53,962 nucleotides of DNA, taken from assembly GCA_025354525.1 (NCBI GenBank), contig JANXMS010000492.1, positions 1-53,962 of the forward strand. The letters are read 5' to 3'. The stretch's first letter is position 1. Each line of letters begins with the position of its first letter. This DNA comes from Acidobacteriota bacterium (GTDB lineage Bacteria > Acidobacteriota > Terriglobia > Bryobacterales > Bryobacteraceae). Positions 6,412-22,434 of the stretch are shown piece by piece. A program made the translations under genes and the position numbers. The notes under the pieces are model-generated. The model saw only the letters and a list, made by a program, of their open reading frames with translations. It ran no database searches and was not told the origin of the DNA.

Positions 6412-7008
6412 ATGGACCCGCTCTTCTTACCCGACGTCGAAGCCAATCCCGCACCCGGGCCCTATGCCCAAGCCATTGCCGCCATGGCTAAAGGCGGTGC
6501 CGAATATCCCCAAATCTGGCACCTATTCGCCTTCAAGCCGCAAGCCACCGAACACATCGCCAAGTTCACCCACGAGATCCTCCATGGCGACGCGCCCCTC
6601 TCCCCCGGCCTCCGCGAACTCATCGCCGCCTTCACCTCCTCCCGTAATCACTGCCCCTTCTGAATTAAGTCCCACGCCGCGGTCGCGGCGGTCCTCCTCG
6701 GCAGCGAAGCAGCCGTCCAAGCCGTCCTCGCCGACTTCGAAACCTCGGCCCTCACCGAAGCCGAGAAAGCCCTCTTCCGCTTCCTCGACAAGGTCAATTC
6801 CGCCTCACCCTCCATCACCGCCGCCGACATCGCTCCCCTCCATGCCGCCGGCTGGACCGACGAACAGGTCTACTACGCCATCACCGTCTGCGCCCTCTTC
6901 AACTTCTATAACCGCTGGATCGATTCCACCGGCGTCCATGCCCTCTCCGACGAAGCCCATCGTGCCGGCGGCCAACGAACCGCCCTCCACGGCTACGTCC
7001 GCCGCTAA
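6412..7008 (+). CDS. CMD/AhpD-like peroxidase-related protein, probable selenoprotein (in-frame UGA)
   Basis: If the TGA at 6661-6663 is read through, one frame encodes 198 residues of a carboxymuconolactone-decarboxylase/AhpD-family protein. The core reads ELIAAFTSSRNHCPF-U-IKSHAAVAAVLLG: E69, C81, residue 84 (UGA) and H88. This spacing (Glu+12 Cys, CxxC, +4 His) equals that of AhpD's E118/C130/C133/H137 as I recall it, so UGA replaces the second redox Cys. The 114 codons after UGA have no further stop or frameshift and keep the neighbours' C-ending codon bias, ending NRWIDSTGVHALSDEAHRAG. A hairpin with a GGUC loop sits just downstream. The stop overlaps the convergent gene at 7005. Alternative: a fresh Cys-to-stop mutation. 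Confidence 0.75.
6675..6690 (+). promoter_or_regulatory. SECIS-like hairpin downstream of UGA
   Basis: CGCCGC-GGTC-GCGGCG forms a 6-bp perfect stem with tetraloop GGUC, and the loop begins 18 nt after the TGA. In the E. coli fdhF SECIS, as I recall it, a GGUC-containing loop begins about 19 nt after UGA, so both loop sequence and distance match a bacterial SelB-binding element. GC-rich coding DNA can make such stems by chance, hence moderate confidence. Confidence 0.55.
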
Positions 7009-8018
7009 CAGATATGCGCCCCCGTCGTGTTCACATACACCGCGTACAACGACTGGCTAGCCGTCATAAATAGCCGGTTCCGACGCGGTCCCCCAAAGCA
7101 GACGTTCGCACAGTTCTCCGGCAGGTAGATCGCCCCGATCCGCTCCCCTTGCGGCGTCAACACCTGCACCCCCGGCCGCGCCCCCGCCCAAATGTTCCCG
7201 TCCACGTCACACCGAATCCCGTCCGCCGCCGTCGGAGTGTTAGCCCCCGGTATCGTCAACGCCGCCAACTGCTTCCCCTTCACGAGCGTCCCCCCGTTCA
7301 CGTCCCAAACCTTCAAATCCCGCCCGCCCGCCCCCGTATCCGCCACGTACAACTTCTTATAGTCCGGCGAAAAGCAGATCCCATTCGGCCCGCTCACCGC
7401 GTCCGTCACCTTCGCTATCTGCCCCGTCTTCCCGTCCACTCGGTACACCGCCTCCTTCACCTCCTTCGGAGCCATATAACCCTCATAGTCCCCATTGATC
7501 CCATACGGTGGGTCCGTAAACCAGATGCTCCCGTCCGGGTGCACCACCAAGTCATTCGGCGAGTTCAGCCGCTTGCCCTCAAACTTGTCCGCGATCACGC
7601 TCACCGTCCCGTTCTGCTCATACCGCACCACGCGCCGACCCCCATGCTCAGCCGATAGCTGCCGCCCCTCATAGTCAAACGTGTTCCCATTGCTATACCC
7701 CGCCGGGTTCCGAAACACCGTCACCCTCCGGTCATCGTCGATCCATCGCAACTGCACATTCCCCGGAATGTCGCTCCAAACCAGGTACTTCCCCACCCCG
7801 TTCCAAGCCGGCCCCTCGGCCCACGAAGTCCCCGTATGCAGGCGCTTCATGCTCCCGTTCCCAATCATGTACTTCCGAAACCGGTCGTCCAGCGCCCTCA
7901 CGTCCGGGTCCGGATACTGTATCGGGTTCTGCCCCGACCAATCCCGAGGCGTCTGTGCCGCCGCCGTCCCTGCCGCTAGCATACCCAGCAGCCCTCTTCT
8001 CGTATACTCTCGTTCCAT
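7005..8018 (-). CDS. SMP-30/gluconolactonase family protein, exported
   Basis: A 337-residue six-bladed beta-propeller lactonase-like enzyme. The N terminus (YTRRGLLGMLAAGTAAAQ) has an Arg pair and hydrophobic core, indicating Tat- or Sec-dependent export. Family metal-site blocks are visible: SWAEGPAW (Glu), LNSPNDLVVHPDGSIWFTD (Asn, Asp) and TAADGIRCDVDGNIWAG (Asp). It probably hydrolyses sugar lactones in the periplasm. AAGGG upstream of the ATG supports the start. It converges on the CMD gene with stop codons overlapping, and is divergent from the DUF6351 gene with only 20 bp between starts, so both promoters must lie in that gap or inside the neighbouring gene. Confidence 0.85.
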   Translation of the reverse strand: MEREYTRRGLLGMLAAGTAAAQTPRDWSGQNPIQYPDPDVRALDDRFRKYMIGNGSMKRLHTGTSWAEGPAWNGVGKYLVWSDIPGNVQLRWIDDDRRVTVFRNPAGYSNGNTFDYEGRQLSAEHGGRRVVRYEQNGTVSVIADKFEGKRLNSPNDLVVHPDGSIWFTDPPYGINGDYEGYMAPKEVKEAVYRVDGKTGQIAKVTDAVSGPNGICFSPDYKKLYVADTGAGGRDLKVWDVNGGTLVKGKQLAALTIPGANTPTAADGIRCDVDGNIWAGARPGVQVLTPQGERIGAIYLPENCANVCFGGPRRNRLFMTASQSLYAVYVNTTGAHIC

Positions 8019-20293: not shown

Positions 20294-21535
20294 CTATTGT
20301 ACGAGGAGAGCCCGCGCCTCGCCTACTAGATAAAGGGAACCGGTGATGAAGAGAACGTCGCAATGCCGAGGCAGCGCAAGGGCGGCGGGCAGATTGGCGG
20401 CGGCACGGGCGTTGGCATGGGGGGCGAGGTCGAGAATCGCCTCGGGTCGAAGAGCGCGGGTTTGGTCGGGGGCGGTGCAGATGAGTTCGTCGACGACCGG
20501 GAAGAGAATGGAGGTAACCTCTTCAAAAGCCTTGTCGCGCATCGTTCCGAAGATCATGCCGATGCGGCGGCCGGCGTGGAAGCGTTCGATGTAGCGAGCG
20601 AGGGCTTGGGCCCCGGCGGGGTTGTGGGCACCGTCGAGGATGATTTCTGGCTCCTGGCTGATGCGTTCCAGGCGGCCCGGCCAAATGGCGGTGGCCATGC
20701 CGGCGACCGGGACGCCGCGGAGTTGCAGCGCCCGGGCGGCGGTACGGGCGTTCTCCCACTGGTGCTCGCCCGCCAGGGGGCAGCGGACTTCGACGCCGTC
20801 GAAGCGAAGGATGCTTCCGTAGGGGTCGGCGGAGACGACCTCCAGCGCAACTTCGGCGGAGCGATAAAGGTCGGCGCCGACGGCTTCGCCGCGCGCATCA
20901 ATGACGGCGGTCGCCTCAGGTCGCTGCTGGGCGATGACGGCGGGAACGCCCGGCTTCAGGATGCCGGCCTTCTCCCCAGCGATGGCCGTCAGACTCTTGC
21001 CGAGCCAGGCCTCGTGGTCGAAGTCGACGGGGGTGATGACGCAAAGTTCGGGGCGGACGAGATTGGTGGCATCGAGCCGACCGCCGAGGCCGACTTCGAT
21101 GACGGCGCATTCGACTCGGCGTTCAGCGAAGACGAAGAAGGCCATTAGGGTGACGGTTTCGAAGTAGGACGGATGGACATCGAGCTTTCCATCGTCGATC
21201 AAGCGCTCCGAGACCGCGTGGACGGCGGCGAAGGCGGCGGCGAACTCGGCGCTGCTGACGGGCACGCCATTGACCTGGATCCGCTCGGTGGGCTGGACGA
21301 GGTGGGGGGACGTGTAGAGGCCGGTCTTAACGCCGGTAGCGCGAATGGCGGCTTCAATGAGGGCGCAGGTGGAGCCTTTGCCGTTGGTGCCGGCGACGTG
21401 GATGACGGGCGGTTGGGAGGCGGGGAAGCCCATGGCGTCCCACACAACGCCCACCTGCTCCAGGCTTAGCTTGGCTGATTTCAGCTCGTTGCCGAGCGAG
21501 TACAGGTATTCAACGCTCTCGGGATAATTGAGCAC
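20294..21535 (-). CDS. folC: folylpolyglutamate synthase / dihydrofolate synthase
   Basis: 413 residues. An ATP-binding P-loop (HVAGTNGKGSTCALIE), Mur-ligase-like central domain (ECAVIEVGLGGRLDATNLV, ITPVDFDHEAWLG, IAGEKAGILKPGVPAV) and C-terminal domain (ILDGAHNPAGAQALARYIE) are all present at normal length. It adds glutamate to folates in the cytoplasm and, in bifunctional forms, makes dihydrofolate from dihydropteroate. It lies between a gluconate dehydrogenase subunit 3 gene (6 bp upstream) and plsC (18 bp downstream), suggesting one transcript. Confidence 0.93.
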   Translation of the reverse strand: MLNYPESVEYLYSLGNELKSAKLSLEQVGVVWDAMGFPASQPPVIHVAGTNGKGSTCALIEAAIRATGVKTGLYTSPHLVQPTERIQVNGVPVSSAEFAAAFAAVHAVSERLIDDGKLDVHPSYFETVTLMAFFVFAERRVECAVIEVGLGGRLDATNLVRPELCVITPVDFDHEAWLGKSLTAIAGEKAGILKPGVPAVIAQQRPEATAVIDARGEAVGADLYRSAEVALEVVSADPYGSILRFDGVEVRCPLAGEHQWENARTAARALQLRGVPVAGMATAIWPGRLERISQEPEIILDGAHNPAGAQALARYIERFHAGRRIGMIFGTMRDKAFEEVTSILFPVVDELICTAPDQTRALRPEAILDLAPHANARAAANLPAALALPRHCDVLFITGSLYLVGEARALLVQ

Positions 21536-21541
21536 CAGGGA

Positions 21542-22051
21542 TCACCCGCGGGGAGAGGCGCAGTTCATGTCCTTGATGCTGGGCACACGACCGCCCTTGT
21601 TGAGTTCCCGCATGCCGATGTTGGTTTGGTAGTAGATGCGGGAGGTCCACATCTTGGCGAGGCGGAAGAACCGCGGGCCGGGTCCGGTGCCGGGGCTATC
21701 GAGGGTCTTTAGGATGGCGACCTGCTGGGGCTCGGTGAGCTTGGCGAATGGGGCGCTATGCTGCTTGATGGCGTAACCGTCGAGCCAGCGGAGACCTTCG
21801 AGGAACGCGTCGCGCTGAGCGACGGGCCCGGCGGCGAGCAAACGGTCGAGCCAGCGATTGACCAAGGCGGCCTTGGCACCGGGAGTGTCCGTCGCGGGGA
21901 TGATGAGTTCGCTGAGGACGACGACAGTATCGTTGGTATGACGATCAAAAAGCTCGGGCTTCCACTCGGGCGTGGTGGAGATCTGCGCCAGCGCCGCCCG
22001 TCCAGCCACCGGTAGCGCGCTACCAACCTGCAACAATGCACGGCGATTCAT
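21542..22051 (-). CDS. gluconate 2-dehydrogenase subunit 3 family protein
   Basis: 169 residues beginning MNRRALLQVGSALPVAGRAA, a Tat-like signal with Arg pair. The body matches the small subunit of membrane gluconate/GMC dehydrogenases: VVVLSELIIPATDTPGAKAA, VNRWLDRLL, then FFRLAKMWTSRIYYQTNIG. The usual partner, a GMC flavoprotein, is not in the window, so this copy is an orphan next to folC. A longer in-frame extension reaches into MITE-B copy 2 but lacks family sequence, hence the start at 22051. Confidence 0.75.
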   Translation of the reverse strand: MNRRALLQVGSALPVAGRAALAQISTTPEWKPELFDRHTNDTVVVLSELIIPATDTPGAKAALVNRWLDRLLAAGPVAQRDAFLEGLRWLDGYAIKQHSAPFAKLTEPQQVAILKTLDSPGTGPGPRFFRLAKMWTSRIYYQTNIGMRELNKGGRVPSIKDMNCASPRG

Positions 22052-22218
22052 GACCCTAGTATATAGCGACATGAAACTTACCCATCGAGACACTACGTCG
22101 GCTTCAGGGCCGTCTACGCTTCGGACTGCTATACCCACTTGAAAGCGAAGAGATTGAGTTGGGCCTGATGGCACCCGGCAAGACGAACCAGCCTTGGGGC
22201 GAACGGCAATTCGCGCTA

Positions 22219-22434
22219 TAGAAAGTCTTGACTTAACAGAGGGCAAATTCGCGACGTCTGAAGAGATCCGGAGCAATGTCGGGAGAGAGGAAGGGGGATA
22301 GAGCCTCGGCGAGATCGACGACAAGCGAATGCATTGACGGGGCCCTGAGCTGGGACAAACGTAGTTTGCAGTCCGCCCAATACGGGGCCGGTACTTCGGG
22401 TTTCCAGAACGCCTCCATTAAGGCGGGTATCGCT
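22219..22434 (+). mobile_element. MITE-B copy 2 (216 bp)
   Basis: A full-length copy, with TAGAAAGTCTTGACTTAACAG at the left end and GGCGGGTATCGCT at the right, flanked by CTA at 22216-22218 and 22435-22437. It provides the unoccupied version (GACGGGGCCCTGAG) of the site into which MITE-A jumped in copy 3. Joining its flanks on the minus strand gives a continuous reading (FDDPNALAQAIG to RELPFAPRLVRL), so it probably split an old gene of unknown family. Confidence 0.8.

Follow-up and report, generated by a model that had tools for sequence, protein, structure and literature searches.

An AhpD/CMD-like gene with an in-frame UGA codon

The gene at 6412-7008 on the plus strand of the window (the whole 53,962-nucleotide stretch of acidobacterial DNA that was analysed) is almost certainly a genuine selenoprotein gene, in which, judging by comparison with homologues, the UGA at codon 84 would be read as selenocysteine. 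The finding adds a member to the already known CxxU AhpD-like selenoproteins, and the phenomenon itself is not new. The comparisons support a recoded frame, a complete selenocysteine machinery in the host genome, selection on an RNA hairpin downstream of the UGA and a predicted AhpD fold; by analogy with AhpD, Sec84 would be the attacking residue of a thiol (selenol) oxidoreductase. The features are as follows.

6412..7008, plus strand: AhpD/CMD-like selenoprotein gene of 198 codons, UGA as Sec84, TAA stop (translation; TIGR01926 and Pfam CMD; TGA recurring in homologues)
6616..6618, plus strand: Glu69 of the E-x11-C-x2-C/U-x3-H motif, invariant in the protein alignment
6652..6654, plus strand: Cys81, which with Sec84 would make up the CxxU pair; invariant in the protein alignment
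6661..6663, plus strand: UGA codon 84, very probably read as selenocysteine, where the CxxC pair has its second Cys (homologue comparison)
6673..6675, plus strand: His88 of the E-x11-C-x2-C/U-x3-H motif, invariant in the protein alignment
6675..6690, plus strand: SECIS-like hairpin with 5' arm CGCCGC (6675-6680), loop GGUC (6681-6684) and 3' arm GCGGCG (6685-6690) (folding; kept in TGA versus Cys forms; synonymous covariation)

Translation of 6412-7008 gives a 198-codon frame with one internal stop, the TGA at codon 84 (6661-6663), beyond which 114 more sense codons run to a TAA. Codon 84 lies in the context RNHCPF[TGA]IKSH, with the spacing E69-x11-C81-x2-[TGA]-x3-H88. A reading made earlier from the letters of the sequence only (hereafter, the sequence-only reading) had located a single TGA at the second-Cys position, and E69, C81 and H88 are where that reading put them. 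It had also anticipated that the gene would otherwise be annotated as an 83-residue fragment, and mechanical ORF calling indeed returns, in the CMD frame, only the 83-aa fragment 6412-6663.

The length of the open frame is of limited value, given that approximately 12% of mononucleotide shuffles of this GC-rich DNA also stay open over the 114-codon stretch. The folding energy of the 61-nt region containing the hairpin is likewise unremarkable (z -0.23) and was dropped as evidence for the hairpin. Neither of these measures proves anything alone, and the strength of the case is comparative. Compared with the homologous locus L018, the window gene differs at 53 synonymous and 9 non-synonymous codons in the region past the UGA (codons 85-198), and shows 35 synonymous and 4 non-synonymous changes in codons 1-83. 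The corresponding changes past the UGA relative to L016 are 51 synonymous and 12 non-synonymous. The 114 codons that the sequence-only reading had called coherent are open to the TAA and have changed mostly at synonymous sites.

The same type of comparison bears on ORF 6464-7060, which overlaps the gene one frame over, is itself open for 198 codons and could be proposed as the real gene, with the CMD frame as its shadow. When ORF 6464-7060 was compared with seven relatives over the stretch past the UGA, however, 52-80 non-synonymous and only 2-6 synonymous codon changes were counted, and its frame is interrupted by 2-8 stops in each of the seven. The CMD frame shows the reverse pattern, and we assign next to no probability to the overlapping frame being the gene.

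Codon 84 in homologues

The homologue set consists of 59 loci from a scan of the genome collection, 30 from a class-wide search and 20 fetched regions, plus the window. One locus, L074, was dropped because its match stops short of codon 84; 109 rows reach that codon, and removal of 12 duplicates left 97 distinct rows. The sequence-only reading had proposed asking what relatives carry at position 84. The answer, with the window included, is TGA in 74 rows, TGC in 19, TGT in 3 and TCC in 1, so that the residue encoded by the non-TGA codons is Cys in 22 rows, Ser in 1 and Trp in none. According to the record titles, the rows come from Acidobacteriota, Gemmatimonadota, Myxococcota and one Gemmataceae assembly; many are metagenomic, and their labels can be wrong. 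Apart from the decayed row described below, 73 TGA rows share the codon, the open frame and the hairpin, a number that overstates independence, as do all the row counts given here, because many rows are closely related.

One close homologue (L071:220-774) shows homology running through two frames with frame shifts, a Cys81-to-Tyr change and the loop GACC. From its sequence, it looks like a decayed copy.

One hypothesis for the TGA in the window is that a Cys codon (TGC or TGT) mutated to a stop codon, leaving a dead fragment. Decay does occur in the family, as L071 indicates. In the window copy, however, the frame is otherwise intact, with neither a second internal stop nor a shift; synonymous substitutions predominate past the UGA against both relatives examined above, and the TGA occupies the same codon in the large majority of rows, from several phyla. 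We think that a pseudogene is very unlikely. The sequence-only reading had itself named what would count against selenocysteine, namely a genome lacking selB or selC, or Cys-bearing relatives together with an unconserved hairpin and additional disabling mutations in this gene. Neither check refuted it: the genes are present (see below), and although Cys-bearing relatives exist and lack the full hairpin, the window gene has no further disabling change and its UGA relatives keep the hairpin.

A second explanation is a sequencing or assembly error at the TGA. The host genome (7.32 Mb, 97% complete) is fragmented into 633 contigs, which leaves some room for such an error, but the same TGA is present in other assemblies, including those of the named Myxococcaceae strains L067, L068 and L070 and that of F-183 (L036), a Bryobacterales genome that is nearly complete. 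The probability of an error is negligible.

A SECIS-like hairpin kept in the TGA forms

In the window, positions 6675-6680 pair with 6685-6690 to form a 6-bp stem, with 11 nt between the UGA and the stem and 17 nt between the UGA and the loop. The sequence-only reading had described a 6-bp stem with a GGUC loop, which agrees with our result, and had started the hairpin 18 nt downstream of the UGA; that offset fits the loop, whereas the stem itself starts at 6675. A search of 6550-6850 against Rfam gave no match at E <= 5. Bacterial SECIS elements are defined, in two publications (PMC10778597, PMC1088965), by a hairpin shortly after the UGA with a small apical loop that contains G and lies 16-37 nt from the UGA. 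The window hairpin has 6 bp and a GGUC loop positioned within that range.

We compared the hairpin between rows with and without TGA at codon 84. At least five of the six pairs together with a paired RGUY loop (G-GU-C or A-GU-U) were found in 67/74 TGA rows and in 0/23 others. Among rows encoding the identical peptide HAAVAA, the full hairpin was present in 63/63 with TGA versus 0/5 without. Under a synonymous null, with codons drawn from the usage of these genes, the full hairpin arose in 12.5%. Some non-TGA rows retain part of the structure: three have all six pairs but not the loop, and two have the GGTC loop with only four pairs.

The first and last bases of the loop fall at the wobble positions of the Ala90 and Val91 codons, where either base is free to change. 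Of the 67 valine-type TGA rows, 51 close the loop with G-C and 16 with A-U, and a mixed combination was never seen; the same positions form a standard pair in only 5 of the 23 non-TGA rows. Parsimony on a FastTree phylogeny counted 13 switches of the pair over 66 of the 67 valine-type TGA rows. The decayed L071 was left out of the tree and of the 73-row table of pairs, and both L071 and L072 were left out of the parsimony count. At the second loop position, G is found in every TGA row except L071 (73 rows). The seven exceptions to the loop rule among the 74 TGA rows consist of five in which G replaces the U, one AGCG and the GACC of L071. Taken together, these comparisons indicate that the hairpin is under selection as RNA. 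The family provides a clean natural experiment in which the same peptide with and without Sec exposes SECIS selection at synonymous sites, and the covariation of the two bases flanking the loop GU is part of what such selection looks like.

The unusual loops of the TGA rows L101, L073, L131, L132, L133 and L134 read AGGU, GGGU, CGGU, GGGC, CGGU and AGCG, respectively. Five of these six lie in the smaller half of the tree, and loops other than GGUC and AGUU possibly represent a separate class of SECIS loop, served by a SelB of its own. In L072:1929-2566, the hairpin sequence occurs twice, flanking an NN gap, as if the assembly had broken at this point.

Selenocysteine machinery

A search of the host genome for selA, selB, selD and tRNA-Sec, which the sequence-only reading had suggested, recovered all four: selA at 454 bits (cut-off 268), selB at 361.9 bits (cut-off 242), selD at 349.9 bits (cut-off 125) and a tRNA-Sec gene at 74 bits with a TCA anticodon by ARAGORN. 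The selD frame (L081, G000:C549:18147-19049, minus strand) contains one in-frame TGA with a GGU-tipped hairpin after it, and selD is very probably a second selenoprotein of the same genome.

The distribution of selB was determined in a class-wide sample of 299 genomes. selB scored over the cut-off in 212/299, so selenocysteine use looks common in the class. The AhpD-like gene was matched at E <= 1e-30 in 65 genomes, 52 with a one-TGA match and 13 without; the TGA was confirmed at codon 84 in 34 of the 52, namely those with loci fetched. selB was detected in 50/52 genomes with the TGA form versus 4/13 with only non-TGA forms (Fisher p 1.1e-6, with related genomes treated as independent). The first pass found selB in 49 of the 52, and when the remaining three were searched less strictly it turned up in G188, whereas the nine non-TGA negatives were searched at the cut-off only. 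In G264 (94% complete) and G192 (72% complete), selB was not found even by the looser search. Two TGA copies are present in each of G133, G193, G116 and G120, and one TGA plus one non-TGA copy in G184 and G204.

These data also bear on whether the UGA is read by a near-cognate tRNA (for example, that for Trp) or under a reassigned code instead of as Sec. In any one genome, the open frame across the TGA would look identical under either reading. The alternative is nonetheless at odds with the absence of Trp among the non-TGA codons, with the full Sec machinery of the host and with the way in which TGA forms track selB. Furthermore, among the window frames that stay open across a TGA, two others were followed, and in each the gene ends at the TGA and is succeeded by an unrelated gene or sequence: the interval 20294-22324 (minus strand), open across a TGA, consists of two genes with different Pfam domains, and in 52633-53925 (plus strand) a cytochrome c gene runs across a TGA into unrelated sequence. 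We regard this form of readthrough as extremely unlikely. The pseudogene, the assembly error, the reassigned UGA and the overlapping frame were all rejected on the evidence given above. Selenocysteine insertion, which the sequence-only reading had put forward, is favored by the machinery, the homologues and the hairpin considered jointly.

Protein family, predicted fold and function

The window protein scores 104 against TIGR01926 (peroxidase-related; cut-off 81.8), 32 against TIGR00778 (cut-off 27.8) and 38.8 against Pfam CMD (PF02627; cut-off 23). TIGR01926 matches all 35 aligned members at E <= 0.001, and E69, C81, position 84 (U read as C) and H88 are invariant in these 35. We take E-x11-C-x2-C/U-x3-H to be the AhpD motif. 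The AlphaFold2 model (mean pLDDT 96.8) has an all-helical AhpD fold, and the best PDB matches by Foldseek are the AhpD-type structures 6k40, 3c1l, 2prr, 2oyo and 2pfx, with TM scores of 0.72-0.79 by query length and 22-27% identity. In the sequence alignment, 6k40 and 2oyo have Cys where the window protein has Sec.

AhpD chemistry employs an attacking and a resolving Cys with a Glu/His proton relay. We envision that the ribosome reaches UGA codon 84 and that the hairpin 11 nt downstream, which lies inside the coding sequence, recruits SelB with Sec-tRNA-Sec, so that selenocysteine would be inserted in place of termination. The product would be a 198-residue, all-helical thiol (selenol) oxidoreductase of the AhpD/CMD family. 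Sec84, replacing the second Cys of CxxC, would be the attacking residue and Cys81 would resolve, with Glu69 and His88 presumably serving as the proton relay. The substrate may be a (hydro)peroxide or another electrophile, and reduction would be carried out by cellular thiols.

Alternatively, Sec might be inserted into an enzyme that is not a peroxidase but acts on another electrophile, as in reductive dehalogenation or another CMD-type reaction, perhaps in conjunction with a transporter. CMD-fold proteins have varied functions, and the debrominase Bmp8 (6ohj, E 1.2e-3) is among the Foldseek matches. Among the 88 loci with enough downstream sequence, 19 (17 TGA and 2 Cys) have a same-strand gene of one cluster directly after the AhpD-like gene; the cluster member that was scanned (that of L021) is an MFS gene by Pfam, and other members include those of L086, L087 and L088. 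With looser clustering, 29 loci have a gene of a downstream cluster, one example of which was inspected. The motif and the best structural matches, however, are of the AhpD/peroxidase-related type, and the window copy has no MFS neighbour, though three congeners have one. We consider a non-peroxidase enzyme possible but less likely. The window gene is followed not by an MFS gene but by a convergent SMP-30/gluconolactonase-like gene, as are L018 and L071. The gene neighbourhood is only partly useful as a guide to function. At five loci (L044, L045, L059, L062 and L069), tandem CxxC CMD/AhpD paralogues lie no more than a few kb upstream of the homologue.

Changes between Sec and Cys

When Sec and non-Sec labels were mapped on a 96-row tree that excluded L071, 5 changes were required, at least 4 of which are forced by well-supported branches; L128, the single Ser row, was grouped with the Cys rows for this purpose, and the root was placed at the midpoint. 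Several Cys rows or groups lie inside Sec groups, which suggests repeated Sec-to-Cys conversion with decay of the hairpin. Because the root is only a midpoint, the direction of these changes is a matter of interpretation.

Discussion

One might combine these observations into a broader scenario, which we offer tentatively and hold, as a whole, to be rather doubtful. An old clade of Sec-using AhpD-like proteins, recurrent in Acidobacteriota, may be common to, or have been passed on to, Gemmatimonadota, Myxococcota and Planctomycetota. It would possess its own class of bulge-less SECIS, in which a covarying pair, G-C or A-U, presents the GU, and would have turned repeatedly to Cys with hairpin decay, often in genomes without selB. 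Its substrate might be handled together with an MFS transporter, and the enzyme would then not be a general peroxidase.

Mechanical ORF calling cuts the window gene to 83 residues and probably does likewise to its homologues, which makes this recurrent acidobacterial redox enzyme easy to overlook.

The statement, in the sequence-only reading, that CxxU forms occur in the AhpD/CMD superfamily is borne out by published work. The Sargasso Sea survey of 2005 reports CxxU AhpD-like selenoproteins (COG2128; 27 sequences; PMC1088965) and the GOS survey of 2008 lists 'AhpD-like 1' with 299 sequences (PMC2398784). A 2026 review (PMC13188914) includes in its selenoprotein lists an 'AhpD-like protein, TIGR01926, CxxU' as well as a CMD-like CxxU family, and a 2022 review (PMC9312934) does likewise, with COG2128. 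For Acidobacteria, a 2006 survey counts four selenoproteins and three selenoprotein families, with two AhpD-like (COG2128) selenoproteins overall, and a 2025 method paper gives three known selenoprotein genes in one acidobacterium. Within the open-access papers searched, a selenoprotein and AhpD are linked in Acidobacteria/Acidobacteriota only in the 2006 survey; earlier reports in the subscription literature are possible.

The AhpD-related (seleno)protein NF041238 and the YciW-related (seleno)protein NF053654 belong to the same superfamily as the window protein. The window protein scores 38.8 against NF041238 (cut-off 175) and 20.9 against NF053654 (cut-off 310), values far below both cut-offs that place it outside these equivalogs. 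The window gene resembles the published AhpD-like CxxU family (COG2128/TIGR01926) in its TIGR01926 label, its CxxU motif and the SECIS-like hairpin after the UGA, a link that rests on the shared label and motif, and differs in having been found here in Acidobacteriota and their neighbours.

A known point of reference for the hairpin is the SECIS of E. coli fdhF, which, according to PMC8659212, is a hairpin 11 nt after the UGA with a small loop containing G and U. The sequence-only reading had suggested comparing the fold with known bacterial elements, and the likeness holds for the short hairpin and the small G-containing loop but not for the bulged U17 of fdhF. The 5' arm in the window lacks this bulge and forms six continuous pairs, so that the upper stem-loop measures 16 nt versus 17 in fdhF; the 11-nt distance from the UGA and the small loop with G and U are common to both.
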